DNA of 64,000 nucleotides from a virus: positions 1 through 64,000 of IMG/VR virus record IMGVR_UViG_3300042392_001493; one strand, 5' to 3'. This document shows, piece by piece, positions 17,989-54,132 of the stretch. The stretch's first letter is position 1; every line of letters begins with the position of its first letter. A model generated the notes under the pieces. It was not told the origin of the DNA, did no database searches, and saw only the letters and a list, made by a program, of their open reading frames with translations. Position numbers and translations under genes: made by a program.

Positions 17989-18160
17989 GTTTTCCCTAGA
18001 ACCTAGTGTTGGCTTTGAGGGTGGGAGTTAGGTATCTCTACTCCCACTCTCTAAATAACTAGGGGTAAATAAAACTAAATAACGCAGGGCAGGGTTAAAG
18101 CTTTGGTTCCAGGATCTAAAATCACTTCCCAAGTTCCCCACCCCACGCCAAGCCCTAAGT

Positions 18161-18188
18161 TTGATTATCCCCCCCAAAATGGTATGAT
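18161..18188 (+). promoter_or_regulatory. Promoter of the VWA gene
   Basis: TTGATT at 18161, TATGAT at 18183, spacer 16. About 28 bases later comes GGACGAAAGAC, a variant of the start-associated element, directly before the ATG. Upstream, a hairpin GTGGGAGT/ACTCCCAC near 18023-18049 may end the ATPase transcript. Confidence 0.6.
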
Positions 18189-18228
18189 AGGTTTTGTAAG
18201 GACACACGATTAGAAAAGGACGAAAGAC

Positions 18229-35056: not shown

Positions 35057-36793
35057 GTGGGTCTATTTACTAACGACACACCAGATCAACCTACTCCTCC
35101 ACCGTCCCAGCCAAAGCGCAAAAGAACTAAGTCAACATTTTCTCGTTCTACACAAATAATTCAGGCTCCAAAGCCTTCAACAATTTCATCTGTATTTACT
35201 AATACAGCACAGTCTGCAAGTTACTCAACTCCTAGAACTCTTACAGCTGCAGCAGCTCAAATTAAAGTCAATGACAAGGGTGAGTTTGAGCAATTTAGAA
35301 TTCGTCGATCTGCTGGATCAAGTGCGTGGCAGTCAGAAGCATGGGAATATTATGACGCAATTGGTGAAATTAAATACGCTTTTAATTTAGTTGCCTCCGT
35401 TGTCTCTCGTATTCGTATATATGCTGCAGTAATTGATGATCCATCAGAGACTCCAATTTCTGTTCGTCAATCAGAATTAGTAGATGATCGTATAGCGGCT
35501 GCAGCAGAGCGTGCACTTGCACGATTAAATTCTGCATACGGTGGACAAGCAGGATTGCTTAGAGATGCCGCACTGAACCTTTCAGTAGCAGGTGAATGTT
35601 ATCTAGTTCAAATGCCAAGCAAGCCATCTCAAAGATTGCCAGAGTCTTGGGACATTCGTTCTGTTGATGAAGTAACAACTGACCCTCGTGGCGGTTTTAA
35701 TGTCATTGGAAGACGTGAACAGTCAACTACTACACAAGGTGGCATAGATAAAACTTCTAAGTTAGGTAAAGATGCATTTGTAGGACGCATTTGGCGTTCA
35801 CACCCTCGCTTCTCAGATGAAGCAGACTCATCACTTCGTGGTTTGCTAGATCTGTGCGCTGAACTTCTTCTCCTCAACAGAACATTTCGTGCAACTGCAC
35901 GTTCTCGTCTAAATGCAGGTGCTCTTTACTTGCCAGACGGACTTTCTGTTGCTTCACAAGGCGATGGTGATTTCCCTTACGACTCCGAAGACGGCATTGG
36001 TCCAAACTTTACTGCTGAAGAAGCAGAGGATGAATTCGAAGAACAATTAATGGATGCGATGACGACTCCGATTCGTGACGAAGAGTCAGCATCAGCAGTT
36101 GTCCCTCTTATCATTCGTGGTCCTGCAGAGCTTGGCGACAAGATTAAGCAGTTTAAGTTTGAGCGTTCATTTGACCCAGCATTAGCTGAGCGTTCTGATC
36201 GTGTTCTAGAGCGCATCTTGCAGGGACTAGATGTTCCAAAAGATGTTGTAACAGGTTTAGCAAATGTTAAGTACTCAAACGCAATGCAAATTGATGAGTC
36301 ACTATACAAGGCGCACATCGAGCCACTTATGTTGCTCATTGCAGATGCTTTAACAGTTGTTTATCTTCGCCCATACCTTATTGCAAATGGTTATGAAGAG
36401 TCACAGGTAAATCGAATTGTTGTTTGGTATGACCCATCAGCAATTGCAACTCGCAATGACCGTGCATCAGATGCTGACTCAGGTTTTGATCGCATGGCAG
36501 TCTCTGCAAACACATGGCGCCGTGCTCATGGCTTCTCAGATGCAGATGCACCAACTCCAAAAGAACTTTCAATTAGACTTCTACAAGAGCGTGGTGTACT
36601 TACTCCAGAATTTACCGAAGCAATGCTTTCAGCAATTGCACCAGAGGTTATTAACACTGTTAGAGAACAACAGCAACAGTCTTCAGTCGCTCCAATTCCG
36701 CCAGAGCTACAGTCAGCTTTAGATGCGGCAACCCAAGGTGCAGAAGCAGCAGGAATTGATGCAGAGGCCCCCACAGAAGGGCAAGAGCAGTAA
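35057..36793 (+). CDS. Portal protein
   Basis: 578 residues; GTG start with AAGGAG upstream. After a Pro-rich N-terminus come AWEYYDAIGEIKYAFNLVAS, SVAGECYLV near residue 180, FVGRIWRSHPRF, the helical LLDLCAELLLLNRTFRATARSRL, and LERILQGLDVPKDVVTG. This is the order expected of HK97/SPP1-type portals of actinophages. Twelve copies would form the DNA channel at one capsid vertex. Its stop overlaps the next start. Confidence 0.88.
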   Translation: MGLFTNDTPDQPTPPPSQPKRKRTKSTFSRSTQIIQAPKPSTISSVFTNTAQSASYSTPRTLTAAAAQIKVNDKGEFEQFRIRRSAGSSAWQSEAWEYYDAIGEIKYAFNLVASVVSRIRIYAAVIDDPSETPISVRQSELVDDRIAAAAERALARLNSAYGGQAGLLRDAALNLSVAGECYLVQMPSKPSQRLPESWDIRSVDEVTTDPRGGFNVIGRREQSTTTQGGIDKTSKLGKDAFVGRIWRSHPRFSDEADSSLRGLLDLCAELLLLNRTFRATARSRLNAGALYLPDGLSVASQGDGDFPYDSEDGIGPNFTAEEAEDEFEEQLMDAMTTPIRDEESASAVVPLIIRGPAELGDKIKQFKFERSFDPALAERSDRVLERILQGLDVPKDVVTGLANVKYSNAMQIDESLYKAHIEPLMLLIADALTVVYLRPYLIANGYEESQVNRIVVWYDPSAIATRNDRASDADSGFDRMAVSANTWRRAHGFSDADAPTPKELSIRLLQERGVLTPEFTEAMLSAIAPEVINTVREQQQQSSVAPIPPELQSALDAATQGAEAAGIDAEAPTEGQEQ

Positions 36794-37938
36794 TGTCTGA
36801 CGAATCAATCGACATTGTAACTACCTCACTTGTATCTGCAGGAGACCCTTGCTGGGACGGCTATAAGCAAGTTGGAATGAAAAAGGGCAAAGACGGAAAA
36901 ATGGTTCCTAACTGTGTTCCTGTTGATGCTTCAGATGATTCAGAGTTTGCAGCAAAGAAAAAAAGAACAATTTCTCAAACACCTGCCCCTAAAAAAGATC
37001 AAATTAAAGGTTCTAGCAAAAATAAAAAAGGATCTGCATCAGGAACTCGTAAAGTTAAATTTTCAGCAGCTGTAGAAAAGTCTTTGAAGAATAAAGTTGA
37101 AACTCATAACGAAAAAGCTAAAAAAGGTCGTCGTGCAACAGTTGGAATGTTAAAAGCTGTTTATCGCAGAGGTGCAGGTGCTTACAGCGTTTCGCATCGA
37201 CCAGGAATGACTCGCAACCAATGGGCAATGGGTCGCGTAAATGCGTTTTTAAAATTGTTGAAGTCTGGAAAGCCATCAAACTCTGCATACACAACAGATA
37301 ATGATTTACTGCCTTCTGGTCACCCACGTTCAACAAAGAAATCAAACTCCATTGCAGCTTCAGCAGGTTTGGTTCCTGAAGAGAGCGATTTAGCAGAAGC
37401 GCTAATCGAGATTGCAGACAAATATGGAAAATTTAATGAAGATGCCACAGGAATCTGGGCAGGATATACACCACCAGAAGAAAATGACGTCAGAGGTATC
37501 GGAGTCAAATGCTCTAACTGTGTTTTATACATGGGTAATAGCCAATGCCGAATCATCGAACTTGAAGTCGAAGACGAAGGTAAGTGTCGTTTCGCGGTTA
37601 TTCCAGATGGCGTCGTTGATGTTGGAGTTCTCGAAGGGGAAAAACTTGGAAACGAAATCCAATCAGAACAAGAACTAGCAGAGCTTTCAGAACAGTGGAG
37701 TTATCAGGAAGAGCTAGAGTCTTTCTTAGGTAAAGAAGAAGACTACGAGTCACCAGAGCAAGCAATTCTTGCTATGGCTGAATATTCTGGCTATGGATAT
37801 GAAGCAGAGCACGCAATTCGTGCATCTTGGCTTCGTGCAGTTCGTAATGGAGAAGATCCATTTAAAAGAGCATCTATCTTAGCTTCTTTAGGAAAAGAAA
37901 GTTTAGATGCAGACTTACTACCAAATGTAGAGAAGTAG
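36793..37938 (+). CDS. Capsid-associated multidomain protein (381 aa)
   Basis: Domains in order: CWDGYKQVGMKKGKDGKMVPNC (broken at residues 20-42), a Lys-rich linker, RRGAGAYSVSHRPGMTRNQW at about residue 125, DNDLLPSGHPRST, then NSIAASAG (about 187), a possible cleavage site. A cysteine cluster CSNCVLYMGNSQC (about 242) follows, then an acidic tail. The RGAGA/HRPGM block and the cysteine cluster occur in capsid-region proteins of other phages. Likely a virion component. Confidence 0.65.
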   Translation: MSDESIDIVTTSLVSAGDPCWDGYKQVGMKKGKDGKMVPNCVPVDASDDSEFAAKKKRTISQTPAPKKDQIKGSSKNKKGSASGTRKVKFSAAVEKSLKNKVETHNEKAKKGRRATVGMLKAVYRRGAGAYSVSHRPGMTRNQWAMGRVNAFLKLLKSGKPSNSAYTTDNDLLPSGHPRSTKKSNSIAASAGLVPEESDLAEALIEIADKYGKFNEDATGIWAGYTPPEENDVRGIGVKCSNCVLYMGNSQCRIIELEVEDEGKCRFAVIPDGVVDVGVLEGEKLGNEIQSEQELAELSEQWSYQEELESFLGKEEDYESPEQAILAMAEYSGYGYEAEHAIRASWLRAVRNGEDPFKRASILASLGKESLDADLLPNVEK

Positions 37939-37941: not shown

Positions 37942-40900
37942 ATGGATAATAAATCTCCAATACTTCATACTTCAGAAAGAGTATTTTCTACTAGAGAACA
38001 AGCTCGTATTATTAGATCTGAAGCCTTAGAAATTTTAGAAAAAGCAAACGAGTTCTCTTCCACATCACGTCGTGTAAGTAAAAGATCTGCTTATAAAGTA
38101 ATTGCTAGATCTCTTGCTAAAAGCAAAGGACTTCCTTTTTCCATTCGTAAGTATCAAGCTTTTTCTGAGCTATCTACATACATAGCATTAGCTAAAAATA
38201 ATAAAGTAGTAGGACTTACTGCTTTTAATACAGATTTACTTCCAATATCACACCCAAGATCAACAAGAGCTCATTCAATGACTGCAGCAGCAGTACGTCA
38301 GGCTCAGATTAATTGGGTAATAGACGATCCAAAGCTTAAAGATGACTCTGTAAAGACTCTACTAGCTTCAGCAATGATGTCTCACCCAGATTCACCAGAG
38401 CACATATATGCAATGAAGCGCATAGAACTTCTTCCACAAGGAACAGTTCCTCTTCAAGCTTTAGTTGCAGCATACGGAGATGGAAACTCTCGAGCCGCCC
38501 GTTCTGCTCGTGCAAAGCTACAGCGCCGTGACCGTAAGGGTCGATTCGCAGAGATGTTTGGAACATTTAAACTTATTCTTGGTCTTCGTGATGGCGGTAA
38601 GGCAAGTGCTACAGGTCGCATCTTAGGTCAAAACATCTTTAGTCCAGATCTTCTTGATATGGAACTTCCAGATGGTCGTATTGCAGCAGTCCCAATTTCA
38701 CAAGGTGAGCAGCCAGAAGCTTTCCTAGATGACTCAAGCGATGAAGCTCGTAAAAATGGTTATGTAAGAGCATCAGATTTAGATATTGATGATAATGCAC
38801 CAGTAGTTCCTGAAGACAGCCTAGCTTTTATGGAAGCACCATCGGGTTTTCGTTCAGATAAAGATTATAAAGGTCCAGGAAATAAATATACAGATGAATC
38901 ATTTGATGTAACAGTTTTTGATGGGCCAAGCCCACAAACTCGTGACCTTATTGATGCAGCAATTAAACGTAGTAGAGAATTAGATTTAGAAGATCCTCGT
39001 CAAGTAAAGCTTGGAGAGGATGGAAAGCTTTGGGATCCAGATCGTAAACTTTTTGCTGTTAATAAGCGTGGAGAAAACACTCAGTTTGCTTTTGCACAAA
39101 ATTGGAAAGATGCTTTAGCTGAAATTTCTCGTAAAGAAAAAATAGACGATGAAGAAAAATTTGAGCAGGGCGAAGAAGAGGAATCAGTTGCTTTAGCTAA
39201 AGATCTTAAAGGTGGAAAGAAAAAAGCAGCTAAGAAAACAGAAGAAAAAGCAAAACTTCCTTCAGACCAATTTAAATACAACGTACCAGAGCGCTCTTTA
39301 GAATTAGATCCAAACTACAACTATATTCCAGAAGGATCTGAAGACGATCCAGCAATGCTTGCTGCAATGCAAAGTGAAGATGAACTGCAAAACGGTCTTG
39401 TTGATGCTTTAGAGCCTGTAAATTCAAAAACACCTGCAACTGGTTTAGGTCGTCTTGAAGATGAAAATGGGGAAGAGTTTGAAGTACCAGCTGAGGCAAT
39501 CCTAAGTGCAATCTCCGAGCAAGGTGGAGATACAGAGATGGCTCTTGCAAAAGCTTATGACACGATCAACAATAACTCTGAAAACGAAAAAGCTTTAACT
39601 GAATCTCGTTCAAAGGAAAGAAAAGAAAAAGCAGCAGAGCCTAAAGAGTTAGATGAAGTTTTTGATGAGGTAGTTTCAAAAGAATCAGAAACACCAGAAA
39701 AGCCAGTTGCTGAAATCTCTGAAGAAGACGAAACTGTAAGCAATGAAGATATGTTAGAAGCTTTAAATCGAATACCAGCTTTAGCGGGTCTTTCTAGGGC
39801 AGAAAAACAGTCAGTAATTGATAACGATGACTACATGCCGTTTATACCTAAAAACGAAAATATTAATTTTCCTGAAGGAATGTATACGCCTTTAGAGTCT
39901 TCTAAAGCTGATAAAGAAGAAGCTGTTAGTTTAGCTTCAGTTAGAAATTTTTCTGATGATGACCTTATTAAAGGTCTTGACGATTCCATTAAAAATGGTG
40001 GAAGCTCAGATGTATTAACTCTTGATGAAAATGGGGAGTTTGTCCCTTCTTCAGTTTCTGCAGAATCTTGGCGTGATGCCATTGCATTGCGTGGTCAAGA
40101 TGCAAATAGAGTTCTTAAAGATATTGCTAACGGCACATTAGATTTAGCTAAAGAAAAGAAAGAATCAGAAAGTCGTGCTCGTAAGAGACAGCAGGAAGCC
40201 GCTAAAAAAGGGCAAAAGCGCAGAGATAATTTACGAAAAGCTTTAGGTTTTACAAAAACAGATAGTTGGAATGATTTAGATATTCTGAATCCAATTTTAA
40301 GAGCTCAAAATCTATTTGGTGATGATCCTGACTATGAAAAGGACCTCAACGATCTTATAGAGTCTTACAAGTCTTTCTTAGAAGGAAAAGATTTAGACAA
40401 ATATGATGATGCAGAAGCAGCATTAAAAGAGTTTAAAGAAGCTGTAGATTCTACAACTTCTGACGATGAGAAATATCAAAAACTTGTAGATGCAGTTAAA
40501 GAATCTATTAATGATTCTTTAGAATCTATTGAAGGTTGGAGAGAGCGTAACCCGAATCCTTTATCTGAAGATATTTCAGAAGATGAAACAGATACAGGAA
40601 AAGTATCGGTTCCAGAGACTCTTCCCGAAGGTTGGGGTCTTGTAGAAGGAACAGATAACCAAATGGTCTCCGATAAAAAAACTGGAGACATTATTGGTTA
40701 TCAAGATAGAGAAGGTACTAAACCTCACTGGTACATCATTACTGATGCAAACATAGATAATGACTCAACTGACGAATTTCCTAGTTTTGAAGATGCACTT
40801 AAGTATTGGAATGATAATTACAAAGATGTAGAACGTGTGTATCCTGAAGGAACTCCTGCAGGTGAGTATGACGCTACACAGCAAGGTAAAATTGATGAAG

Positions 40901-43900
40901 AAATTCTTGAAGAAGAAGAAAAAGAAGCCGCTGGCGCTCCTCCATCAGGTCCCCCACCAACTGACGGAGACGAAGGACCTCCAAAAAAGATAATTACATA
41001 CAAGCGTTCTGGAAAGCGAACACTGCTTCGTGGCGGTAAAGGAGCTCCTTTCCGTGACAAAGATATTGCAGACTTCTTAGCTGAAAATGGTTTTACTTGG
41101 TCTGACACCGTAGAACGTGATGGTAGAACTATTAACGTTAAGGCACAAACAGCACTACAAGAAGATAAAGAGTTTAAGGCTTTTGCCCGTGAGCTTCGTG
41201 ATCGTTTTAATATTGATTTACAGCCTCGTTCTGGACAAGACCCTATTGATTTTGATTCAGAGGATGAAGTAGATGAGACTGCTGCTACAACAGAATCAAC
41301 ACCAGTACCTCCATCTTCTGAATTAAAAGATAAATTAATAAAGCGTGATGGAATTCAAATGATTAAAATCACTGGGCCAAACGGAGAAGAGATTGAAACT
41401 CCAGTATTTAATCTTGCTGGTCGCCCTATCGTGTTAATTAATGTTAACGGAGTACGAATGCCGTTTTATATTAGCACAGGTAGCGGAGGAAAGAAAAATG
41501 TTCCTGTAGGAAAGTGGTACCCAATATTTGGAATTGGAGCTGACGGATGGTTTAACAAGGGCAACGAAGAAGAAATTAATGACTACTTTGGAAGCCCAGA
41601 ATTAAAAGAAGCAGCAGAGTGGCTTAACGCAAACATCGGGGATATTCGTAAAGAAAATATGCCAGAATTTGAAGATCTTACTGACGAGCTCCGTGAACAA
41701 GTAAATCAAGATTTAACGCCTGGTCGCTACTATGAAAACGCTATTGTTTATGGAAATAGAGCAATTGCACTTGCAAAAATTAGTGGAGATGAAGAAAGAG
41801 TAAAGGAAGAAGAAGATCTTCTTAAGAAAAACTTAGATGAGGCAAAAGCGCTTAAACGTTTAGAAGACGCTATATTTGGAAAAGACAGAGAAAAAGAAGA
41901 CACTGAACCTGTTGAAGGAGATGAAACAACTTCTGAAACCGTAGAAACTCCAGAAGTTATACTCGACGAAGAAACAGAAAAGCCTTCCAGAACTCCTAAG
42001 CCAGAAGAAACTATTGTTGAAGAAACTATTGTTGATGTAATAACAGAAGAGGGACCAAAGCCCACTGTTGACGATCTAGTTAATAAAGTAAAAGATAAGT
42101 TAGAAAGTGACGATAAAGTTTCAGGGAACTTTGGTACCAGAAAAGATATGATCTCTAAACTTATGTGGTTTAAGTGGGGTGCAGGAGCTTACAGAAATGA
42201 GTCTCAATATATTCGCTCTTCTATGAAAGATTATAAGAAAAAACTAGAAAATCTTTCTGATCAAGACATGATTGATATGTTAAATCTTTATTATGACGAG
42301 ATGGATGCCATTATTGCTGATCAAAACGAGCGAAAAGAAAGAAGTCGCAAGCTGGCTGATGCTCGTGCTAGAAAACGTAAAGAGCGTGAAGACAAACTTC
42401 TCGAAGAATCTGAAGATAAGCCTGAAGAAACTTCAACCGAAGAAGAGACTCCAAAAGTAGCTGAAGAAAAACCAACTCCTCTTTCCGTTAAAGATAAAGA
42501 AGTTCTTAAAGCACTTGTTGACAGACGTCGCAAAATACAAAGAAAGATTGATAGAGCAGATCTTTCCGAAGAAACAACTCCAGCTCAGAAAAAAGCTCTT
42601 AAAGATGAGCTAGATGAAGTTACCAGAATAATTGATGAAATTGTTCTTGGTGAGAGACCAGCAGAGTCAGTAGAGGTTCCTACTGAAGAAACTTCTACAA
42701 CTGAAGAAGTAACTCCAGAAGCTTCAAAGCCAATTAAGACCTCAGTTCGTGGCGCAGATCTTCAACCAGGCGATGTAACTGTCAATGATTTCTTCACAAT
42801 TACAAATGTTGAAGGTGGGTATAAGAAGACAGTTAAAGGCGTAGAAGTACCAGCATCAATTGTTAGCGGCTACTACCCAGGATCTGTTGAACAATCAAGC
42901 AAGCTTTGGGCAGATGACACATTGTTTGATGTTTATCGTGGTGCAACTCCTCCAGAAAAGGGAGACTTACCAGAACTTCGTCAACCAAAGCGTGAAGATT
43001 TTAGAGGGGATAGCCCAGGCTACAATGAAGCAAGAGCCAAATACGATGAAGAGTTGGATCGTCGTAAATCAACATGGACTCCTCCAACAGACGTCGAGTC
43101 TGTATCTACTGCTCAAGCTCCTAGAGCTTCTATTGTTTCGGTTAAAGCTAGGGACCTTAAACCAGGAGATATTACATTTAGCGTAAATGAAAAAACTAAA
43201 GAATTAGAACGTTTCTTTGTTGTAACAGAAGTTCTTGAAGAAACGAGAGAATATGTAAGACCAGACAATGGCGAAGTAGAAATAAAAGCAATTGTTCGTG
43301 GTTACTATCCTGGACATACAATCCAAGAGAATGATTGGAATGAAGGAGCAATAATTAGCGCTATCAGAGGAGAGTCTGAAGCTAATATGCCAAAATCTGG
43401 TGACAAACCAGAAATTGAAAGAATTCCAAATGGAACTTTAAAGGGCAAAGAATATTTTGAAAAGAGAGCTGAAATTGAAGAAGCCCGCAGAGAAGCAGGT
43501 AAGGATTACAAACCATCAGTATCTCCTGCTTTAAGCAAGCCTGATCGTCCAAACAGACCAGCATTTTTCGGGTCAGCTGAAAAACTAACAAAACTAAAAG
43601 ATGGCGCTGCTATTTGGGAAGCTCTTAAAGACGAAAGAGTTGTTTACTTTGACTTTGAAACGGTAGGCACTGGTCGTTTTGATTATGATGATCCAGATGC
43701 ACCTATTCAACTTGCTGCATCTTTATATGAAAAAGGTAAAAAAGTTGGCGAAATAGATCTCTTTATGAATCCTGGACAACCTCTAGATGACTACTACTAC
43801 ACAAAAGAACGGTATGTAGGAAAAACTAGAATAGTAGAGCCTTACCTTGATGAAAATGGCAATAGAGCTCTAAATCCAGAAAAAGTTATTGACAATAAAG

Positions 43901-46900
43901 GTGTAAAAGTTGATGACGAGTGGTTATCTACTCAACCAAGCATTGAAGATCAGCTTCGTAAATTTGCAGAATTTATTGGAAAAGACGCAATTTTAGTTGC
44001 TCATAACGCAGAATTTGATACAAACACTTTTGAAAAGTGGGCCAAAAAATTTGGAATTGAGTATTCTTTCGGTGGAGTTATTGACACTATTGAAATAGAT
44101 GCTGCTAATAAAGGTGTTGCTAGAGGTAGTTCTCTTGTAACTGTTGCAAAGAAGGCTGGAGTTGATGCAAAAGATAAGCAGTGGCACAATGCCGTGACAG
44201 ATTCTGAAGTTCTTCCAATAGTTTTAGAAGATCTTCTTAAGAAAATGAAACCAGAAAATAGAGAATTTGAGCCAGAACTGCGTAAGGCAGAATATGAAAG
44301 TAAACTTGAACAATATGAAAAAGATTTAGCTGACTTTAAAGCCCAAGGAGATCAACCTGAAGCTGTTTCACCATCAACCTTTGGTTCAGATGGACCTACA
44401 GATAAAGTAACAGATTACGCTCACGTTTCTATATTCGGAGACATTATTAACGAAGCTTGGGCACTTGATGATGAGAATACCTATGCAGTTAATGGTGGAG
44501 GATCTGTTGTAGTTGACGAACTACAAATTGGAGATATTCTTGAAGGTACATCAGGATTAGTTGAAGTTGTAGATATTCAAATTGACCCAGAAAACTCTGA
44601 CAAACTTATTATTTATCGCAAGAGATTAAGAGATGGAAAACCTTTTTCAGAACGTGTAGAACCTTCTTCAACTCCAGGAGTTGGTTGGGCTAGAGGAAAA
44701 GTACTTAGAGGAGTAGTTCGTCGTAGATCTTCTATTGGCAAAATTAAACCTGAAGATATTAAAGACATTCTGCCAAAACCAATACCAAGCGACCCTACTC
44801 CAAAAATTTCAGAAAAACAAAAGCCAGTCAAGGGTCAAGAGGTTACAGACCCTCAAGCGGCTTCAGTTGTTGCAGATGCTATTGAAACTATTACATCTGG
44901 AGCTAAGTCTGGTAAAAAAGTTAAAGAAGCAATTAAGGATCTTAATATTGACGAAACAATTAAAGATCAGGTTATTGCACGAGAAGGCTCTTCTAAGTTC
45001 CACATAGACGCTAACAACGTAGCCATAAAAGCTGGAGATAGAGTTAGAAACGTTAAAAATGGAAGAACTGGAACAGTGTCGGTTTTCTGGGAAGAGTACG
45101 GAAAAAATAAATACAAAAATTATCTCAAGGTCAGATATGATGACACTAAGAGAAGAGAAAATGTTAGTGCTAGCAGCTTAGAAGTATTTAACCTTGATGA
45201 TGGAGATAACATCCTTTCTTCTGGTGTGGAAGATATGGGAATGGGAATGTCTATTCCAGAAGGTCCTACTACCAGAGGTTTAGTTTCATCAATAGTTGAT
45301 GCAAAGGATCTTAAGCCTGGAGACAAGCTAGACCCTAGTGGAAAAACTACGATTCATAAGATGATGATTAGAGACGACAAAGTTTATACTGGCAAAAAAA
45401 CTAGAGGTTCTAGAGGAGGCGGCGGCGACGTTTACCTTTTAACAGATAAGGTAAAGGTTTGGAGAAAACCTGAAGATACTCCAGAAACTCCAATGGGTAT
45501 GGCACTTCCAGACATGGGAGCTGAAGTTTATGACATGGCACCGCTTTCTGAAGAAGGTTCAGCTGTTCCTAACGCTCTTCCAGAAGATAACTACGAATAT
45601 GCAGGAGAAAAATTCCCTCCTACAGCCGAGCAACGAAATGTAGTTACAGCAATTATGACTGGTGATAACGTCGTTGTTCGTGCCTTAGCTGGTACAGGTA
45701 AAACAAGCACACTCACACTTGCTGCTCGTCGACTTCTTGAGGAACAACCTAAGAAAAAGATTGTTTATATTGCATTTAACAAAACAGTACAGATGGAAGC
45801 AGAAGGCAAGATGCCTAAAAATGTTGAATCACGCACAGGTGATTCAATTGCTTTCCAAGGTGTAAGCAACGATATTCGTCAAAAATTTTTAAACCAAAAG
45901 GGTAAAACTGCAAATATGAAGCTTCGTGCTGAAGATATTGCAGACGAGCTTGGAATCAAACCAACTGGTGTAAAACTTAAGGGTGTAGAAGTAAGTCTTT
46001 CTTCACGAGAAATCCCAGCAATAATTAAGCAAGCAGTTAATAACTTTTCAATTAGCGCAGACGATGAGCTTGGTGCTAAACATTTTACAGAAGAGCTTGA
46101 TGAAGTTCCTCGCTCATTTGTAGAGTATGCCAATGCTTATTGGGACGATCTAAACAGTCCTGCAGGAGTATTTGGTATCAACAATGCTCACATTACAAAA
46201 ATTTGGGCGTTAAGCAATCCAGATTTAGGTTCTATTGGCTCTGGAATGAAAACTCCAGCAGATGTAATCTTTTTTGATGAAGCTCAAGACATTAACCCAG
46301 TTATTGCAAAGGTTATTGCCGATCAAACTATTCAAAAAGTTTATGTTGGCGATGGAAACCAAGCAATCTATGCATTCCGTGGAGCAGAAGACCAGTTAGA
46401 TAGGACAACAGCTAAATGGGATCTTCCACTAACTCAATCTTTCCGTTTTGGCCCTGAAATTGCTGGAATGGCAAATCGCTTCCTTACTCAACTTGATTCT
46501 AAGTACCGCGTTGAAGGTTCTGGGTCAAAAGGTGAAGTAGTAGATGGAATGGAAGATCCAGATGTTGTAATCACCCGTACTAACTCTGGTGGATTCCGAG
46601 CAATGATTGAACTTCTTGATGCTGGCAAGGTTGTTGGAATTACAAAAGGAACAAAAGACGAATTAGAAAGCCTTGTTCTTAGTGCTTCATGGCTTATAGG
46701 AGACCAGACAAAGTTTAAAAAGCCAACAATGCACCCAGATCTTGCAGAATTTAAAAATTGGTCTGAGGTAAAAGAAGCTGTTGAAAAGGGCGAAGGTAGA
46801 AAAGTAAAAGCCCTATACGATTTAGTTGTACAAAATGGAATTGGATCTATTAAAGATATTCTTAGCAGAGTAAAGGTTGCTACACCTGAGTCTGAAAAGA

Positions 46901-48525
46901 AAGACCTAAAACCATCATCTGATTTTAAGAAGATTACTTTAGATCAAGCTGAAGATGGAGCTAAGGGTTCTATTGGAGAAGGTATTAATTATGAAGTTAA
47001 AGATAAAGCAATTCGTCTTTCTGGTAATGGAACATTTAAAGGTAAGGACAAAATTAAAGATCAAAATTTCCGTTGGGATGCGACAGGTAAGCAGTGGTTT
47101 AAAGAAGTTGAAGACGATTTAGATCGTCAAAAAGCTATTAATGACCTACGCAGAGGTGTAGGAGGTTTTGCACCTGATGCAGGTGAAGAAGAAGATGAAA
47201 TTGATGTAATTGTAACCACTGCACATAAGTCAAAGGGCTTACAGTGGAACAACGTTCGTATTTTTGATGACTTCTGGGGTCCTCGTACAAACAAAAAAAC
47301 TGGCGAACTTGAAATGCCAGTAGACGAGGAACTTCGTCTTGCATATGTTGCACTTACTCGTGCACAGAAAAAGTTAGATCCAGGTCCACTTAATTGGATT
47401 AAAGAATACACTGAAGATGAAGACGAGTCTCCAAAGAAGCCAACTGCCGTAGAAACAGCTATGGGAATGGCTCTTCCTACTGAAAAAGTAACTGAAGATG
47501 AGTTTAATGAAAGCACTGTTAAAACAGCTGAAAAAATTGATCCAGCTGTTGAAAAAGTTGCTAATGCAATTATTGAAGCAATCGAAAGAGGAACTGTCCC
47601 ATGGCAAAAGCCTTGGACTGGTGGAGGATTCCTTCCAACTAGCGTTGCTACAGGTAAAACTTATGAAGGATCAAACATCCTTGTTTTATGGGCAGCTATG
47701 GAAAAGAATGGCTGGACAGACAACAGATTCCTTACATACAATAAAGCAGAAAAACTTGGCGGAAATATTCGTCGTGGTGAAAAGGGAACTCAAGTTATCC
47801 ACTGGCCACAAATATTTAAAGAGGTTGAAAAGCCAGACGGTACAAAAGAAAAAGTTCGTGTCTATCGACCACCTACAATTCGTACAGTCTTTAACGTAGA
47901 GCAAGCTGAGAATATTGATCTTCCAGCAATTGTAAAGGGAGAACCAATTCCAGTTACAGAAGGCGAAACAGCAATTCTTGAAGCATACAAAGACAAGCCA
48001 GAAATTCTATTTGTAGCTCAAGATCAAGCTTTCTATAGCCCTATAGATGACATTATTAAGCTTCCACAACGTGAGCAGTTCAAGTCTGAGCAATCATTCT
48101 TTGAAACTCTTGTTCACGAATTAGCGCATAGCACTGGTCATAGGTCACGTTTGGATAGAACAGAACTTCTGGACAATTATGGAAAGCACTTAGAAAGCCG
48201 TGGTGAAGAAGAGCTTATTGCAGAAATTACCGTTGCACTTGTTGCAGGTCGTCTTGGTGTAAAAATTGACTTCGAAAACGTTGCAGCATATGCCAAGTCT
48301 TGGCTACCAGCTGTAAAAAATAATCCACAGATGATCGTTAAAGCAGCAAAACAAGCTCAAAGAGCAGTTGACCATATGCTTGGAAAGCAAGAAGAGCCAG
48401 AAGGTCCTGTCGATGAAGACGGCAATCCAATTGGCAGCGGAGTTGGAAGTGAAGGTAAAACTGGAGAAGAGATTGCTGCAGAGAAAAAAGCTGAACCTGA
48501 AAACAAAGATGAAAGGACTGTATAA
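37942..48525 (+). CDS. Giant polyvalent protein: exonuclease, SF1 helicase and ArdC-like domains
   Basis: 3527 residues. N-terminal part: HSMTAAAV (about 111), RDRKGRFAEM (about 195), then some 1300 residues of acidic, low-complexity linkers with small beta modules. LQPGD/LKPGD modules lie near 1602 and 1736. A DEDDh exonuclease spans about 1890-2095 (YFDFETVG, HNAEFDT, HNAVTD). An SH3/KOW-like module is near 2364. A UvrD-type helicase spans about 2545-3150 (Walker A GTGKT near 2583, DEAQD near 2778, HKSKGLQW, YVALTRAQ). ArdC-like ssDNA-binding and zincin parts follow from 3190 (ERGTVPWQKPW, HELAHSTGH near 3392). Encoded between portal and protease; probably packaged and injected with the DNA. 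Confidence 0.88.
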   Translation: MDNKSPILHTSERVFSTREQARIIRSEALEILEKANEFSSTSRRVSKRSAYKVIARSLAKSKGLPFSIRKYQAFSELSTYIALAKNNKVVGLTAFNTDLLPISHPRSTRAHSMTAAAVRQAQINWVIDDPKLKDDSVKTLLASAMMSHPDSPEHIYAMKRIELLPQGTVPLQALVAAYGDGNSRAARSARAKLQRRDRKGRFAEMFGTFKLILGLRDGGKASATGRILGQNIFSPDLLDMELPDGRIAAVPISQGEQPEAFLDDSSDEARKNGYVRASDLDIDDNAPVVPEDSLAFMEAPSGFRSDKDYKGPGNKYTDESFDVTVFDGPSPQTRDLIDAAIKRSRELDLEDPRQVKLGEDGKLWDPDRKLFAVNKRGENTQFAFAQNWKDALAEISRKEKIDDEEKFEQGEEEESVALAKDLKGGKKKAAKKTEEKAKLPSDQFKYNVPERSLELDPNYNYIPEGSEDDPAMLAAMQSEDELQNGLVDALEPVNSKTPATGLGRLEDENGEEFEVPAEAILSAISEQGGDTEMALAKAYDTINNNSENEKALTESRSKERKEKAAEPKELDEVFDEVVSKESETPEKPVAEISEEDETVSNEDMLEALNRIPALAGLSRAEKQSVIDNDDYMPFIPKNENINFPEGMYTPLESSKADKEEAVSLASVRNFSDDDLIKGLDDSIKNGGSSDVLTLDENGEFVPSSVSAESWRDAIALRGQDANRVLKDIANGTLDLAKEKKESESRARKRQQEAAKKGQKRRDNLRKALGFTKTDSWNDLDILNPILRAQNLFGDDPDYEKDLNDLIESYKSFLEGKDLDKYDDAEAALKEFKEAVDSTTSDDEKYQKLVDAVKESINDSLESIEGWRERNPNPLSEDISEDETDTGKVSVPETLPEGWGLVEGTDNQMVSDKKTGDIIGYQDREGTKPHWYIITDANIDNDSTDEFPSFEDALKYWNDNYKDVERVYPEGTPAGEYDATQQGKIDEEILEEEEKEAAGAPPSGPPPTDGDEGPPKKIITYKRSGKRTLLRGGKGAPFRDKDIADFLAENGFTWSDTVERDGRTINVKAQTALQEDKEFKAFARELRDRFNIDLQPRSGQDPIDFDSEDEVDETAATTESTPVPPSSELKDKLIKRDGIQMIKITGPNGEEIETPVFNLAGRPIVLINVNGVRMPFYISTGSGGKKNVPVGKWYPIFGIGADGWFNKGNEEEINDYFGSPELKEAAEWLNANIGDIRKENMPEFEDLTDELREQVNQDLTPGRYYENAIVYGNRAIALAKISGDEERVKEEEDLLKKNLDEAKALKRLEDAIFGKDREKEDTEPVEGDETTSETVETPEVILDEETEKPSRTPKPEETIVEETIVDVITEEGPKPTVDDLVNKVKDKLESDDKVSGNFGTRKDMISKLMWFKWGAGAYRNESQYIRSSMKDYKKKLENLSDQDMIDMLNLYYDEMDAIIADQNERKERSRKLADARARKRKEREDKLLEESEDKPEETSTEEETPKVAEEKPTPLSVKDKEVLKALVDRRRKIQRKIDRADLSEETTPAQKKALKDELDEVTRIIDEIVLGERPAESVEVPTEETSTTEEVTPEASKPIKTSVRGADLQPGDVTVNDFFTITNVEGGYKKTVKGVEVPASIVSGYYPGSVEQSSKLWADDTLFDVYRGATPPEKGDLPELRQPKREDFRGDSPGYNEARAKYDEELDRRKSTWTPPTDVESVSTAQAPRASIVSVKARDLKPGDITFSVNEKTKELERFFVVTEVLEETREYVRPDNGEVEIKAIVRGYYPGHTIQENDWNEGAIISAIRGESEANMPKSGDKPEIERIPNGTLKGKEYFEKRAEIEEARREAGKDYKPSVSPALSKPDRPNRPAFFGSAEKLTKLKDGAAIWEALKDERVVYFDFETVGTGRFDYDDPDAPIQLAASLYEKGKKVGEIDLFMNPGQPLDDYYYTKERYVGKTRIVEPYLDENGNRALNPEKVIDNKGVKVDDEWLSTQPSIEDQLRKFAEFIGKDAILVAHNAEFDTNTFEKWAKKFGIEYSFGGVIDTIEIDAANKGVARGSSLVTVAKKAGVDAKDKQWHNAVTDSEVLPIVLEDLLKKMKPENREFEPELRKAEYESKLEQYEKDLADFKAQGDQPEAVSPSTFGSDGPTDKVTDYAHVSIFGDIINEAWALDDENTYAVNGGGSVVVDELQIGDILEGTSGLVEVVDIQIDPENSDKLIIYRKRLRDGKPFSERVEPSSTPGVGWARGKVLRGVVRRRSSIGKIKPEDIKDILPKPIPSDPTPKISEKQKPVKGQEVTDPQAASVVADAIETITSGAKSGKKVKEAIKDLNIDETIKDQVIAREGSSKFHIDANNVAIKAGDRVRNVKNGRTGTVSVFWEEYGKNKYKNYLKVRYDDTKRRENVSASSLEVFNLDDGDNILSSGVEDMGMGMSIPEGPTTRGLVSSIVDAKDLKPGDKLDPSGKTTIHKMMIRDDKVYTGKKTRGSRGGGGDVYLLTDKVKVWRKPEDTPETPMGMALPDMGAEVYDMAPLSEEGSAVPNALPEDNYEYAGEKFPPTAEQRNVVTAIMTGDNVVVRALAGTGKTSTLTLAARRLLEEQPKKKIVYIAFNKTVQMEAEGKMPKNVESRTGDSIAFQGVSNDIRQKFLNQKGKTANMKLRAEDIADELGIKPTGVKLKGVEVSLSSREIPAIIKQAVNNFSISADDELGAKHFTEELDEVPRSFVEYANAYWDDLNSPAGVFGINNAHITKIWALSNPDLGSIGSGMKTPADVIFFDEAQDINPVIAKVIADQTIQKVYVGDGNQAIYAFRGAEDQLDRTTAKWDLPLTQSFRFGPEIAGMANRFLTQLDSKYRVEGSGSKGEVVDGMEDPDVVITRTNSGGFRAMIELLDAGKVVGITKGTKDELESLVLSASWLIGDQTKFKKPTMHPDLAEFKNWSEVKEAVEKGEGRKVKALYDLVVQNGIGSIKDILSRVKVATPESEKKDLKPSSDFKKITLDQAEDGAKGSIGEGINYEVKDKAIRLSGNGTFKGKDKIKDQNFRWDATGKQWFKEVEDDLDRQKAINDLRRGVGGFAPDAGEEEDEIDVIVTTAHKSKGLQWNNVRIFDDFWGPRTNKKTGELEMPVDEELRLAYVALTRAQKKLDPGPLNWIKEYTEDEDESPKKPTAVETAMGMALPTEKVTEDEFNESTVKTAEKIDPAVEKVANAIIEAIERGTVPWQKPWTGGGFLPTSVATGKTYEGSNILVLWAAMEKNGWTDNRFLTYNKAEKLGGNIRRGEKGTQVIHWPQIFKEVEKPDGTKEKVRVYRPPTIRTVFNVEQAENIDLPAIVKGEPIPVTEGETAILEAYKDKPEILFVAQDQAFYSPIDDIIKLPQREQFKSEQSFFETLVHELAHSTGHRSRLDRTELLDNYGKHLESRGEEELIAEITVALVAGRLGVKIDFENVAAYAKSWLPAVKNNPQMIVKAAKQAQRAVDHMLGKQEEPEGPVDEDGNPIGSGVGSEGKTGEEIAAEKKAEPENKDERTV

Positions 48526-48653
48526 TGGTTACTAAGTCAGATAAAGAAAAGTATGCTGAGCTCGTTGCCGCAGCTTATAAAAAGTTGATGGATATTGCCG
48601 AGTCAGACCCTAACGCTGTCGAGGCAGATGAAGACGAAATGGAGGAACTATGA
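48525..48653 (+). CDS. Very small acidic protein (42 aa)
   Basis: MVTKSDKEKYAELVAAAYKK with an acidic end. Starts on the last base of the giant gene's stop (TAATG) and ends overlapping the next ATG, with GGAGG between, so it is a coupled link in the operon. Confidence 0.6.
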   Translation: MVTKSDKEKYAELVAAAYKKLMDIAESDPNAVEADEDEMEEL

Positions 48654-49360
48654 AGATCTCTTCCGCTAAAGAGTACCCTAAAGAGGGTGTCTCATTAGTC
48701 TACTCAAATGGTGACAACATTATTCTTCAACAAATTTTTTATACAGAAGATTACGGAATTTTTACTCGAATAAACAATCAATGGGAACTGCTATCCGAAG
48801 ACGATGAGAGTTTGGAAAATATGTCTATTATGGACATTCTCCCAGAAGACTACAAAATAGTTACAGAAATGTTTGATAATGCCAGTGCTACTAAAACTCC
48901 TTTAACATATGACAATGTTAAAAAGTATGAAGTAGCTTATTCTATCGAAGGTAGATCGATGACAGCAGCTGTTGAGACATCTGAAGGATGCCCTCCAGCT
49001 ACTCAAGATATTGGCATTAATCTTGATAACCGTAAAAACGCTATTGACACCGCTATGTATGGACCCCTTAATCCTCTAGAACCAAACGATGAGTATTGGG
49101 AAGCAATTGCAGATGAATGGTCTGTCGATAAAGAGACTGCAAAGAAACAACTTTGCGGCAATTGTGCCGTGTTTATTCAGACCCCAAGGATGCTGGATTG
49201 TATTGCTTCTGGGCTTGGAAATGAAGAAGGAAATGATGCTTGGGGCTCAATCGAAGCTGGAGATTTAGGGTATTGTGAAGCATTCGACTTTAAATGCGCT
49301 GCATCCCGCACATGTCGTGCATGGGTCGCTGGTGGACCAGTTACAGAGGAGAGCAAATAA
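48650..49360 (+). CDS. Capsid-region protein with cysteine cluster (236 aa)
   Basis: N-terminal beta domain (residues 1-75), then RSMTAAVE near residue 103, a possible cleavage site, and a C-terminal module with six cysteines (LCGNCAVF, LDCIAS, GYCEAF, KCAASRTC). Cysteine modules of this kind accompany portal and protease genes in cyanophages and actinophages. Probably a minor virion protein. TAATG overlap with the protease gene. Confidence 0.65.
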   Translation: MKISSAKEYPKEGVSLVYSNGDNIILQQIFYTEDYGIFTRINNQWELLSEDDESLENMSIMDILPEDYKIVTEMFDNASATKTPLTYDNVKKYEVAYSIEGRSMTAAVETSEGCPPATQDIGINLDNRKNAIDTAMYGPLNPLEPNDEYWEAIADEWSVDKETAKKQLCGNCAVFIQTPRMLDCIASGLGNEEGNDAWGSIEAGDLGYCEAFDFKCAASRTCRAWVAGGPVTEESK

Positions 49361-52300
49361 TGGATTACGTTGGTCGTAACGGCTCTAGATTTCTCTTCAT
49401 ATCTGAAACTTTTGGTGCTGTAGTAGACGAGTCAAAAAACCTTGTTGTTGCTTTAGACGTTAAAGAGCCTCTTATTGCAGCAGTTAATTGGGATTCAGAA
49501 AATAACCGTCCAAGTGGAGCATCTGTAGAACTTGCAGCAGCAGCTCTTACAAATTTAGATATTAAAGTTTTTTCAAATAATGATCGTATGTATACGATTC
49601 CTGACTCAGTAGTTGCTGAGGCAAAGCGCGGCCTTGAGTGGCGCAAAGAAGAAGATAGAGGAGGAACATCAGTTGGGCTTAATACCGCTCGCACGCTTGC
49701 TCGGGGTGGCCAAATCGGAATTAGAAAAGTCCGACACATTGCCAAATACTTCCCACGTCATGAAGTAGATAAAAAGGGAACTGGCTACAAGCCGGGACAA
49801 AAGAATTACCCATCAAATGGCCGCATCGCTTGGGCTCTTTGGGGTGGGGATGCGGCTAAGTCTTGGGCTACTGCAATTGTAAACCGTGAAAATAAAAAGG
49901 CTAAATCAAATTCAATTACTGCTGGCGGATTAGATCCTATGGATTTTGAAATGCCAAAAAGAATTAATTACGATTCTTTTATTGTTTCAAAGACAATGCC
50001 TGAAGACAATGTTATTGAGTTTTTTGCTCGTATTCGCTTAGACGGATCTGGCATTGATCGCTTATATCGAATTGAACCAGCAGGGCACATTTATGTGTGG
50101 GACGATGGCGACTGGGAAGATATGGGTATGCCAGACGCTGATATGTCTATGTACGACAAAATTCTTGATAACCCTAACGATAAAACACCTTGTGGACACG
50201 TTCCAGTAGATACAGAAACTGCACTTTTTATTGCAGCACTTATCGACAACGAACCATTTATTGCACATAAGGTAGAAAAGCTATACCCAGAAGAAAGCAA
50301 AATTTATCAAGAAGCCTACCCAGATATTGATATGGATTTGTTAGATGATCTAGCTTTTCAAGATGAAATGTCTGATTCATGGGACTCCTTTGATGACAGC
50401 TTAACTGCTGCAGGAGAGACTCCAAGTTCTGGTGAAGGTGATGGTATTTATACTCCAGAAGAACGCTCTCAAAAAGCATCTGCTCAGTTAAGGGATAAAA
50501 CAGGTAAGTTTGCAAAGATGGGTGGCCGTGTAATTATCGGTGGCCGTCCTGAATATCAAGGAAACATTCGTGCTCTTGACGCTAAAACACAAACTGCTCA
50601 AGTAGAACTTGATAACGGAAATTTAATTAGTATTGCTGCAAATATGACGGAACCAGCAGAGTCATACGTTCCTATTCCTACTTCAGTTGCAGAAGGAGAA
50701 TTAGATACATCTGGAATTCTTGGTGAGCCTCGTACTCCTATGGATTCACCTATCCGTATGCCAGGAACTCTTCCTTCACTAAACGCACAAAATTTAAATT
50801 TAATGCTAACTAATTATCCTCAATGGGTTTCAGATCAAAGACTGTCTCCAGATCCACAACCAACTCAAGCACCTGCAAGTTCTAATTTAAGAGCTACTCC
50901 TCAAACTGCAGTTCCTCAACAACCTCAAAACGTAGAAAAAGAAGTTTCTAAAGACAATCCTTTATACAAGTATTACCCAGAAAAGTTTACTAATTGGACT
51001 AAGGAAGTAAATGCATACAACCTTCCTATACTTAAGCCTTGGCTTGAATCTGGACCAGATACTCGTCGTAAATATAATCCTTTTGTAGATCCAGAAAAAA
51101 CAAAAAAAATTACTGAAGAACGAGGAATTAAATCTCCTAAACTTGACTCTAAAGGTCGTCCTCTAAAAGCTTCTGCTGGAGAAGAAAAAGCAATGACTCC
51201 TGAAACTTCAGATGTGCCTATTCTTCATATGGCAATAGTTTCACCAGATGACCCGCAAGCTGTTATGGATTTAGTTGCTCTTGTACCTGCATCTAATAAA
51301 ACAATTGAACCAGCTACCTACACTCGTAAAGATGGTAAATGGATACTTGATTCCCAGATATTAAATGATCTTCGTAGTGCAACACCTCCACCAGTGGTTG
51401 TCTTAGATGACAAAACTCTTGTTGACGTTTTAGAGCAAGTAGACAACAAAGGCGAGTCAATGACTGCTGCTGGAGGACTAGATCGTAACCGCGGTCAAGC
51501 AGAAAAGCTTCGTCGTTATTGGTTATACGGTAAAGGTGCAGCAAAAATTCGTTGGAGAACTCCAGGAGACTGGACCCGTTGCTATCGTCAATTAGCTAAA
51601 TACATGGGACCTCGTGCAAAGGGCTACTGCGCTCTTCGTCATAAAGAAGCAAATGGTTACTGGCCAGGCGATAAAAAGAATCGTGAAATGACATCATTTA
51701 GTGTCGATACTTTGCATAATTATGATGAACTTTTGAGCACTTTTATTATGCGTGCTAGAGCAGCAGATGCTAAAGCTAGAGTTATGACCGCTGGTGGCGA
51801 CATGGATTATGACCAAGGGTCAGAGTTCTATATTCCTCTAGTTATCCCAGAAGAAGTCGAGTCTGGAGATGGCAGAGTTATTGTTAAAGATGCTCTTTCT
51901 ATAAGAGATCTTCCACTGCCTCTTTTATGGCAAATTCAAACAGGAGAAGGCCATAATGGGTCGGTTGTAGTTGGAAAAATTGTTGTAATGGAAAGAGTAG
52001 ATGGCGGAATAGGAAATGCTAAAGGCTACTTTGATAAAGGCGCATATGGACAAGAAGCTGAACGACTAGTTCGTGGTGGCTTTATTCGTGGAGTTTCGGC
52101 AGATCTCGATCAATTTGAGGGTGACGAAGAGGTTCAAGAGGTTAAAGAAACTTCTGACACCAAGGTAGAAAGCGGTAAAATAAAGATCAAGAAAGCACGA
52201 GTCATGGCTGTGACTTTGGTGCCGAAGCCAGCTTTCCAAGAATGCTCAATTCAACTCGCCGATGAGCTCGGCGGAGAAGAGGAAGAAGTGAATATCCCTG

Positions 52301-54132
52301 ACGGCGTATATGTCGAAGGAGTAAACCCTCTCGATGCTTCGGCTCTTGTTGCTTGCGGAATGATCGCAGGTGCAATTCCAGTTAATCCACCAAAAGAGTG
52401 GTTTAACGATCCAAAATTAACAACTGCAACACCACTCACTGTTGATGATGATGGTCGTGTATTCGGTCATATCGCAGCTTGGAATGTTGATCATATCGGC
52501 ATGAGTATGGGAACCAAGCCTCCACGCAGTCGTAGCAAGTATGCATATTTTCACACAGGTGTAGTTCGTACAGATGATGGTACAGATGTACCAGTAGGGC
52601 AATTAACTCTTGCGGGGGGACACGCATCACTAGAAGCATCAGCCTCTGAAGCAGTTCGTCACTACGACGACACAGCGTCTGCAATTGCAGATGTACATGC
52701 TGGAGAAGATGCCTATGGTATTTGGGTAGCTGGATCAGTTCGTCCAGGATCTACACCAGAACAAATTCGTGCACTTCGTGCATCAGCACCATCTGGTGAC
52801 TGGCGCCCAATTAAAAATTCTTTAGAACTAGTTGCTGTATGTCAGGTAAATGTTCCAGGATTCCCAATTGCTCGTGCTCGTGTTGCATCAGGATCTGTTA
52901 TGGCTCTTGTTGCTGCTGGAGCAAGTGTTCTTGCACAACTAAAAAGCGATCCACTTTTAGAAATGAAGGGTCGTCTTGAAGCTTTAGAGCGTCCACAAAA
53001 AGAAGCTTTAGTTGCTTCAGCAAATGATGCTCGTTCTCGTATTCAAGCTTTTCAAAATGCACAATTATCAGAGCAAAAAGCTTTAATTGCTGCAAAAGTT
53101 TCAAAAATAAAAGTAGACTCGGATCTCGATTATGACTATATGACCGAGATGTTCGATGATGACCCAGAAAATGAAATGGGAGTTATCTCTCGTAAGACTC
53201 GTATGCGTCTTGCTGAAGAAGGAAAAGCACTTCCAGATGGATCCTTTCCTATCCGCAATCCTCAGGATTTAAAAAATGCTATCCGTGCTTATGGTCGCTC
53301 AAGGCCAGGAAGCCGTGGCAAGGTAAAACGTCATATCATGAAACGTGCTATTGGTCTTAATAGAGAAGAAATCATTCCAGAAAGTTGGAAAGGTGCAGCC
53401 TCTAATTTAGATGAAATTGTCGAGACTATGAAAACTCGAGCAACTTTTGCAGCAGCTTCTATGAATTCAGAAGCAGTTTTTTCAACACAAGAATTTGCTG
53501 AAGATCCTATAGAAGAAGAGATTGCTGACCTTACAGATGAAGAAATTGAAGCATTAAAAACTGAAGCAAAAGCTCGTAAAGATCAAGAAAATGATGGTAT
53601 CTCTCGTGATGAAGATGGCCGTGCTAAATACACCCCTGAAACTCAACCTCGTGATGCCTCAGGCAAGTTCCGTCAGGTATTAGCCCGTATCAAGCAGGAT
53701 CTTGGAACATCTGGTTTAGACCGTGTCCTAGATAAAATTGCAGAAGCTGAAAACTTTGATAGCACTGGCGATTACGCTGGAGCAGCTAAAGCAGCAGGAG
53801 ATTTACTCGGAATTATTGACCGATTGGACTCTGGAGCACTAAATGCTGAAGCTTTAGAGAACGTTCGAATTAGCGCTGGAGAGCTTGGAAAGGTTATTGC
53901 TAACCTACCTTTTGCCTTCGGTGAAGATGCAGAAAAGATTCGCTTCTCAGACGTTCCTCCAGCTCTTAGAGACCTCATGAAAGACATGATTACTCGTGTA
54001 GAGGACAAGATTGGTCAAGAAGATGCTGACGAAGCAACAGAGGGTTTGAAGAAGTTTATTTCAGGTAGCGATCTCTATAATCAATCAGAAATATCTTCCC
54101 AGATGGCAAAGCTTCTTCGCTTACTTACCTAA
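49360..54132 (+). CDS. Giant prohead maturation protease fusion (1590 aa)
   Basis: ATG 49360 overlaps the preceding stop. In order: a KGTGYKPGQKNYPSNGRIAWALWGGDA-type domain (about 125-180), ITAGG (186), LTAAG (347), RDKTGKFAKM (about 382), a Pro-rich linker, MTAAGG (700), a GDWTRCYRQL..GYCALRHKE domain (735-775), and MTAGG (809). The S78-like prohead protease follows, about 818-968, with His in GEGHNGS and Ser in RGVSAD. Then comes a beta domain with DDGRVFGHIAAWN (about 1030), and a helical C-terminus with RDASGKF. HK97-type proteases are usually 200-250 residues, so this is a large fusion. Confidence 0.8.
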   Translation: MDYVGRNGSRFLFISETFGAVVDESKNLVVALDVKEPLIAAVNWDSENNRPSGASVELAAAALTNLDIKVFSNNDRMYTIPDSVVAEAKRGLEWRKEEDRGGTSVGLNTARTLARGGQIGIRKVRHIAKYFPRHEVDKKGTGYKPGQKNYPSNGRIAWALWGGDAAKSWATAIVNRENKKAKSNSITAGGLDPMDFEMPKRINYDSFIVSKTMPEDNVIEFFARIRLDGSGIDRLYRIEPAGHIYVWDDGDWEDMGMPDADMSMYDKILDNPNDKTPCGHVPVDTETALFIAALIDNEPFIAHKVEKLYPEESKIYQEAYPDIDMDLLDDLAFQDEMSDSWDSFDDSLTAAGETPSSGEGDGIYTPEERSQKASAQLRDKTGKFAKMGGRVIIGGRPEYQGNIRALDAKTQTAQVELDNGNLISIAANMTEPAESYVPIPTSVAEGELDTSGILGEPRTPMDSPIRMPGTLPSLNAQNLNLMLTNYPQWVSDQRLSPDPQPTQAPASSNLRATPQTAVPQQPQNVEKEVSKDNPLYKYYPEKFTNWTKEVNAYNLPILKPWLESGPDTRRKYNPFVDPEKTKKITEERGIKSPKLDSKGRPLKASAGEEKAMTPETSDVPILHMAIVSPDDPQAVMDLVALVPASNKTIEPATYTRKDGKWILDSQILNDLRSATPPPVVVLDDKTLVDVLEQVDNKGESMTAAGGLDRNRGQAEKLRRYWLYGKGAAKIRWRTPGDWTRCYRQLAKYMGPRAKGYCALRHKEANGYWPGDKKNREMTSFSVDTLHNYDELLSTFIMRARAADAKARVMTAGGDMDYDQGSEFYIPLVIPEEVESGDGRVIVKDALSIRDLPLPLLWQIQTGEGHNGSVVVGKIVVMERVDGGIGNAKGYFDKGAYGQEAERLVRGGFIRGVSADLDQFEGDEEVQEVKETSDTKVESGKIKIKKARVMAVTLVPKPAFQECSIQLADELGGEEEEVNIPDGVYVEGVNPLDASALVACGMIAGAIPVNPPKEWFNDPKLTTATPLTVDDDGRVFGHIAAWNVDHIGMSMGTKPPRSRSKYAYFHTGVVRTDDGTDVPVGQLTLAGGHASLEASASEAVRHYDDTASAIADVHAGEDAYGIWVAGSVRPGSTPEQIRALRASAPSGDWRPIKNSLELVAVCQVNVPGFPIARARVASGSVMALVAAGASVLAQLKSDPLLEMKGRLEALERPQKEALVASANDARSRIQAFQNAQLSEQKALIAAKVSKIKVDSDLDYDYMTEMFDDDPENEMGVISRKTRMRLAEEGKALPDGSFPIRNPQDLKNAIRAYGRSRPGSRGKVKRHIMKRAIGLNREEIIPESWKGAASNLDEIVETMKTRATFAAASMNSEAVFSTQEFAEDPIEEEIADLTDEEIEALKTEAKARKDQENDGISRDEDGRAKYTPETQPRDASGKFRQVLARIKQDLGTSGLDRVLDKIAEAENFDSTGDYAGAAKAAGDLLGIIDRLDSGALNAEALENVRISAGELGKVIANLPFAFGEDAEKIRFSDVPPALRDLMKDMITRVEDKIGQEDADEATEGLKKFISGSDLYNQSEISSQMAKLLRLLT

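Follow-up and report, generated by a model that had tools for sequence, protein, structure and literature searches.

Phage and plasmid proteins that combine unrelated enzyme domains in one chain were described as the polyvalent class in 2017; it includes ArdC-N and zincin domains encoded in the virion modules of phages, as well as giant actinomycete plasmid proteins with a UvrD-like helicase (Iyer 2017; PMC5512222). In P1, a large helicase-bearing anti-restriction protein, DarB, is encoded beside the portal and the prohead protease and is found in virions, its N-terminal 30 residues targeting cargo to the capsid (PMC9024508). Head proteins of SPN3US, including abundant ejection proteins, shed N-terminal propeptides, most of them 111–254 residues long (PMC10052503), and N4 ejects a virion RNA polymerase, a multidomain protein of ~3,500 residues encoded among its head genes.

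Here we describe a single frame (37942–48525, + strand, as are all head-region features below) in a window of 64,000 nucleotides, the stretch analysed throughout, which is part of an IMG/VR virus record that totals 106,188 bases. Its product, a 3,527-residue polyvalent protein of 393 kDa without a single cysteine, is called the giant below. Like the proteins of the 2017 class it joins unrelated enzyme domains, has ArdC-N and MPTase hubs and belongs to a virion module; however, ArdC-N, for which an N-terminal 'header' position was proposed as the preferred one in that class, lies near the C-terminus, and both the exonuclease–helicase–ArdC combination and a DEDDh exonuclease go unmentioned in the accessible text (PMC5512222). 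DarB differs in being annotated as a methylase plus helicase, with neither exonuclease nor ArdC annotated, and the pair of N6-adenine methylase and SNF2 helicase typical of it is absent from a Pfam search of the giant. The N4 polymerase matches the giant in size and head-gene origin but carries another catalytic domain, while SPN3US follows the propeptide logic that we predict for the giant (115 residues) with a different cleavage site. Injected multi-tool proteins are a known class, of which the giant is an unusually well-defined case; its new parts are the joining of exonuclease, helicase and ArdC, the family of headers, the protease site predicted here and a chain almost devoid of cysteine.

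A selected frame among the head genes

The 3,527 codons contain no internal stop, and dN/dS against two relatives (L006 and L013) is 0.08–0.23 in header, exonuclease, helicase, ArdC and linker alike, so that selection acts on the protein along its entire length. Since the motifs are conserved in relatives as well, the frame is neither chance nor artefact; frame breaks in L020, L021 and L022 were taken as assembly errors or local defects. The single frame of the original prediction is confirmed in this way: the ORF is genuine, under purifying selection and retained in many freshwater viral contigs.

The gene order is portal (35057–36793, with site TLTAAA at residue 62), a 381-aa head protein (36793–37938, with DUF5824 and DLLPSGHPRSTK..IAAS), the giant, a 236-aa cysteine-rich protein (48650–49360, with an SMTAA site), a 1,612-aa prohead protease polyprotein (49294–54132), the major capsid protein (54301–56385, with VTAAA and ITAGA where its long acidic N-terminal region ends), and then head-tail and tail genes. 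The giant therefore lies between portal and prohead protease, as first proposed, but is directly adjacent to neither, since the 381-aa and 236-aa genes intervene. It sits among late virion genes, as phage polyvalent proteins do, and the slot defined by portal, giant, protease and capsid recurs in DSL-LC01 and in the Arthrobacter phages Talia1610 and Atuin. The protease polyprotein contains a predicted herpes/T4 gp21-like protease at residues ~850–1000. In DSL-LC01 three individual ORFs, annotated as capsid maturation proteases, are its counterpart (L002, 30926–35845). The polyprotein has two RDxxGKF motifs and four candidate [VILM]TA[AGS] cleavage sites, some of them between the former ORFs. 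In the non-structural part of the genome an AAA_5 ATPase adjoins a VWA/CoxE-like protein, a MoxR-type pair (16930–20010), and a B12-dependent ribonucleotide reductase is encoded at 4470–6512 (− strand). Outside the window, a 2,896-aa ORF (L176, 4094–12784, − strand) lies near collagen-repeat genes and is probably tail or fibre related.

The host is probably a freshwater actinobacterium, because the virus record encodes a WhiB gene (outside the window), DSL-LC01, the closest relative that has a name, comes from lake water and is a predicted actinophage, and the helicase of the giant is closest to an Arthrobacter phage helicase.

Three enzyme modules with intact motifs

A DEDDh 3'-5' exonuclease of the DnaQ/PolC type occupies residues 1897–2102 (43630–44247), matching Pfam RNase_T at residues 1992–2090 (5e-13) and, among PDB sequences, the PolC exonuclease 2p1j (2e-6). 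Its motifs FDFET (1903), AHNAEFD (2020) and HNAVTD (2082) supply the signature residues D-x-E, N-x-x-F-D and H-x4-D. An SF1 helicase of FBH1/UvrD-like type follows at residues 2547–3164 (45580–47433), with Pfam UvrD-helicase at 2562–2816 (1.6e-15), UvrD_C at 3084–3145 (9e-9) and a PHROGs DNA helicase match (3e-85). Its motifs I–VI are intact and conserved, including GTGKT (2584), DEAQD (2779), GDGNQAIYAFRGA (2803), TAHKSKGLQW (3093) and VALTRA (3136). The third module begins with ArdC-N at residues 3203–3304 (47548–47853; Pfam ArdcN over the same residues, 6e-31) and continues with a zincin metallopeptidase, MPTase-PolyVal, at 3359–3471 (48016–48354; Pfam 2e-29), in which HELAHSTGH (3392) is followed by EELIAE (3423). 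ArdC-N followed by an HExxH zincin with a distal glutamate makes a complete ArdC, also matched by PHROGs anti-restriction protein (6e-73) and the ArdC structure 6i89 (3e-42).

The module calls agree across Pfam, PHROGs, NCBIfam and PDB sequences, and the catalytic motifs of all modules are kept in relatives at 45–80% identity. Profile searches thus bear out the three predicted enzymes, and the combination of several disparate domains in one chain at a virion-module location bears out the polyvalent character. Two refinements are needed. The exonuclease had been called repair-type and is of the proofreading (DnaQ/PolC) type instead; the expected UvrD profiles are matched, but among solved structures the helicase is nearer to FBH1 (9xzj, 2e-25) than to UvrD.

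Long acidic linkers separate the modules. Further upstream, conserved domains are found at residues 1015–1122 (40984–41307) and 1359–1489 (42016–42408), and two 'DLxPGD' repeat domains at 1605–1686 and 1736–1827 (42754–43422) precede the exonuclease in most relatives. Residues 3043–3055 resemble a DUF5710-type motif as judged by eye.

Could the giant then be a late cytoplasmic replication or recombination enzyme that lies in the head operon by chance? Its helicase and exonuclease do have relatives in replication and repair, but the virus encodes a separate replication set at ~73–80 kb of the record (a PolA that includes an exonuclease domain, plus SNF2 helicase and PD-(D/E)XK nuclease), and the header, predicted cleavage site and cysteine content described below speak against such a function, so that we regard it as highly improbable. 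For the exonuclease and helicase to be the phage's own replication enzymes is likewise less likely, given that separate set; DnaB was not found in the record, which may be incomplete.

A probable head-assembly header with a predicted cleavage site

Residues 1–330 form a header that a header-alignment scan found ahead of varied payloads in 241 viral contigs, 80 of which were retrieved. It starts with a helical domain, the predicted N-terminal propeptide (residues 1–115, 37942–38286, from alignment and an AF2 model), at whose end lies MTAAA (residues 113–117, 38278–38292) with cleavage predicted after A115, and continues with an RDxxGRF motif and SH3-like barrel (~195–251, 38524–38694). The AF2 model has confident helices (pLDDT 73–93 for residues 11–180) and a small barrel at 208–251, and yielded no significant match in a PDB fold search; structure models were built on alignments without the entries of annotated public records. 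The RDxxGRF and SH3-like part is also present in the protease ORF, in DSL-LC01 and in the Arthrobacter-phage giants, and a segment DLLPxxHPRSTK...MTASA is common to the header and the 381-aa neighbour. In the 30-kb Roseobacter phage CRP-821, a region homologous to residues 85–221 of the 381-aa protein (P0002) is N-terminal in a 975-aa ORF that bears the annotation major capsid protein (L211, 2165–5089), which appears to be a fusion of the DUF5824/DLLPxGHPxSTK segment with protease-like and capsid sequence. The placing of this segment before the other two was read off the sequence of the ORF. A literature search found no mention of DUF5824. Judged by these sequence relationships, the header is a head-assembly element. 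No header relatives were found among 84,980 prokaryote genomes, and so no prophage or host was traced through it.

The motif [VILM]TA[AGS] is found in 74–100% of the members in each of six families of the head (those of portal, 381-aa protein, header, 236-aa protein, protease and capsid), several-fold above shuffled expectation, and in 3–13% of the members of three families downstream of the capsid gene, below shuffled expectation. Since it was first spotted by eye, we tested exhaustively all 19,600 tetrapeptides of the form class-X-Y-class, and it alone reached at least 74% in all six head families with at most 13% in the later ones, with a margin of 0.61 as against 0.20 for the runner-up. 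Five of the families, not six, count as independent, because the header and the 381-aa family share the site segment by homology. Enrichment in pooled sequences ranked other dipeptides higher, as one conserved column is counted repeatedly there, and the per-family test was used instead.

The motif is probably the site of the predicted herpes/T4-fold prohead protease. In a Foldseek search with a low-confidence protease model, the proteases of T4 (gp21), KSHV, EBV and HCMV ranked top (prob 0.80–0.97, E 0.02–0.13). Herpesvirus maturation sites have the form (V/L/I)-X-A|S, which the motif resembles. The giant carries, on sequence grounds, the hallmark of a prohead-protease substrate, an N-terminal propeptide predicted to end at a site of the portal/capsid type. 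Residues 1–115 are probably removed in the head, and peptides across the whole giant are for this reason not expected in virions. Some observations run against the packaging model: the strict site is present in 26 of 35 headers and altered or absent in others (MTSSA in L036, LSLAQ in L059), and in the Arthrobacter giants the SH3-like part occurs with neither helical header nor site.

Exclusion of cysteine

Across 26 distinct giants there are 15 cysteines in 75,397 residues, or 0.2 per 1,000, and the giant of the window has none in 3,527. The corresponding values are 4.4 for the portal, 5.0 for the protease, 16.4 for the 381-aa family, 26.5 for the 236-aa family and 1.5 for the capsid protein, and the early genes of the window are cysteine-normal at 12.9. 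Phage helicases that stand alone but belong to the family of the giant's helicase have 3.5–15.7 per 1,000, while helicase-bearing giant ORFs of actinomycete plasmids and genomes are low but variable (0.2–4.7). A homologous helicase also sits in an ORF of ~9,680 aa on a Streptomyces microflavus plasmid (L181), which has one cysteine in the 4,920 residues covered.

Cysteine is likewise absent from the ejected N4 polymerase (3,500 aa) and from T7 gp15 and gp16 (for gp16, over 1,302 residues only). The simplest reading is that long chains which thread a narrow channel unfolded have been selected against cysteine; an acidic, disordered composition could add to the scarcity. Loss of cysteine is not required for ejection, because P1 DarB, differing from the giant in this too, has 9.

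The same pattern bears on whether the giant might stay behind in the capsid as an internal core protein, with its enzymes acting during packaging or the chain merely organising DNA. Its position and header would suit a head component of this kind, but three DNA- or defence-directed enzymes keep their catalytic motifs and cysteine is excluded as in the ejected N4 and T7 proteins, which makes retention very unlikely.

Exchange of payloads within the family

Architectures were read with profiles built from the giant of the window. The full order of header, two DLxPGD domains, exonuclease, helicase and ArdC is found in the window, L006, L013, L014, L019, L042 and others, and L031 has the same enzymes with one DLxPGD domain. 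In L063, L067, L086, L091 and others, header, DLxPGD and exonuclease are followed by C-termini that Pfam does not recognise, amounting to ~1,600–1,900 residues in L063 (5195–14695) and L091 (9920–19342); the latter has a weak PI3/4-kinase-like match at residues 2997–3044. The giant of L069 (9965–20920) lacks the exonuclease and joins the header to a helicase, a ParB C-terminal domain (phrog_2579, 1e-37) and DUF7178.

More distant relatives keep the slot and change the content. WJZ48510 of DSL-LC01 (3,289 aa) has slot and header as in the giant, and 2 cysteines, but none of its three enzymes was detected. Talia1610 gp77 and Atuin gp71 share the slot, a homologous helicase, the SH3-like part and the absence of cysteine, but exonuclease and ArdC were not found there. 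Giant UvrD proteins of Streptomyces plasmids carry a homologous helicase inside very large ORFs, but header, exonuclease and ArdC were undetected in the stretches examined. None of the phage records searched covers 80% of a 1,637-aa C-terminal query, and none of the plasmid records searched covers 80% of a helicase–ArdC query.

Between L013 and the window, dS is 1.47 for the exonuclease and 0.33 for the helicase, which suggests that modules are exchanged within the giant gene. Modules that swap independently, differ in divergence and are joined by long acidic linkers would also suit a packaged polyprotein, from which the giant's own zincin or the prohead protease frees exonuclease, helicase and ArdC, the single chain being a loading format. 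Processing by the zincin is indeed proposed for polyvalent proteins by Iyer et al. However, the prohead-site motif occurs once in the giant, within the header, and is rare elsewhere in its relatives, and for the zincin a cleavage consensus is not known here. We therefore consider release of separate enzymes unlikely and favour a chain delivered whole after loss of its propeptide.

A proposed route from prohead to recipient cell

Quite probably, the giant is a polyvalent cargo protein that is packaged in the head by means of its header, cleaved at residue 115 and ejected, its enzymes acting on the entering DNA. The original prediction of a virion protein injected with the DNA is strengthened in its first half: packaging is well supported, because part of the header recurs in head proteins, the [VILM]TA[AGS] site is shared with them and cysteine is excluded. 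Injection we infer; ejection is likely by analogy and from the cysteine exclusion.

In the mechanism that we propose, the header, with its helical domain and then its RDxxGRF/SH3-like domain, would recruit the giant into the prohead. There the neighbouring herpes/T4-fold protease would cut behind MTA (residue 115), just as it would process segments of portal, capsid and scaffold, and the mature head would retain ~3,410 residues of the giant. The sequence evidence set out above is what suggests these loading and cleavage steps. The cysteine-free chain may then exit through portal and tail together with the DNA. What would the enzymes do in the recipient cell? From what is known of their families, ArdC-N/zincin would bind DNA and counter restriction; DNA ends or recombinase-coated strands of the incoming genome would be the substrates of the FBH1-like motor and of the 3' exonuclease. 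Processing or protection of the incoming genome by the giant is thus plausible. On Pantoea plasmids an ArdC-like gene lies close to a related helicase gene, beside a TraI-domain gene, which suggests that the pairing of ArdC and helicase is useful to entering DNA generally.

More broadly, there is about an even chance that this actinobacterial phage lineage has a standard, swappable slot for head cargo (cleavable header, herpes-type protease site [VILM]-T-A|[AGS], and a strictly cysteine-poor chain fit to pass the tail unfolded) that is loaded with exchanged multi-enzyme payloads. If so, the payload of the window would be a complete genome-entry kit of 3' exonuclease, FBH1-like strippase and ArdC, and cysteine exclusion together with the shared protease site would flag ejected proteins from sequence, including those of uncultured phages. 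What was a guess from domains can now be tested through a predicted protease site, a loading signal and an ejection signature, for which the Arthrobacter phages offer isolated relatives. Confirmation would provide a delivery tag for multi-enzyme cargo and would explain how DNA-processing and anti-restriction activities enter the cell ahead of any gene expression.
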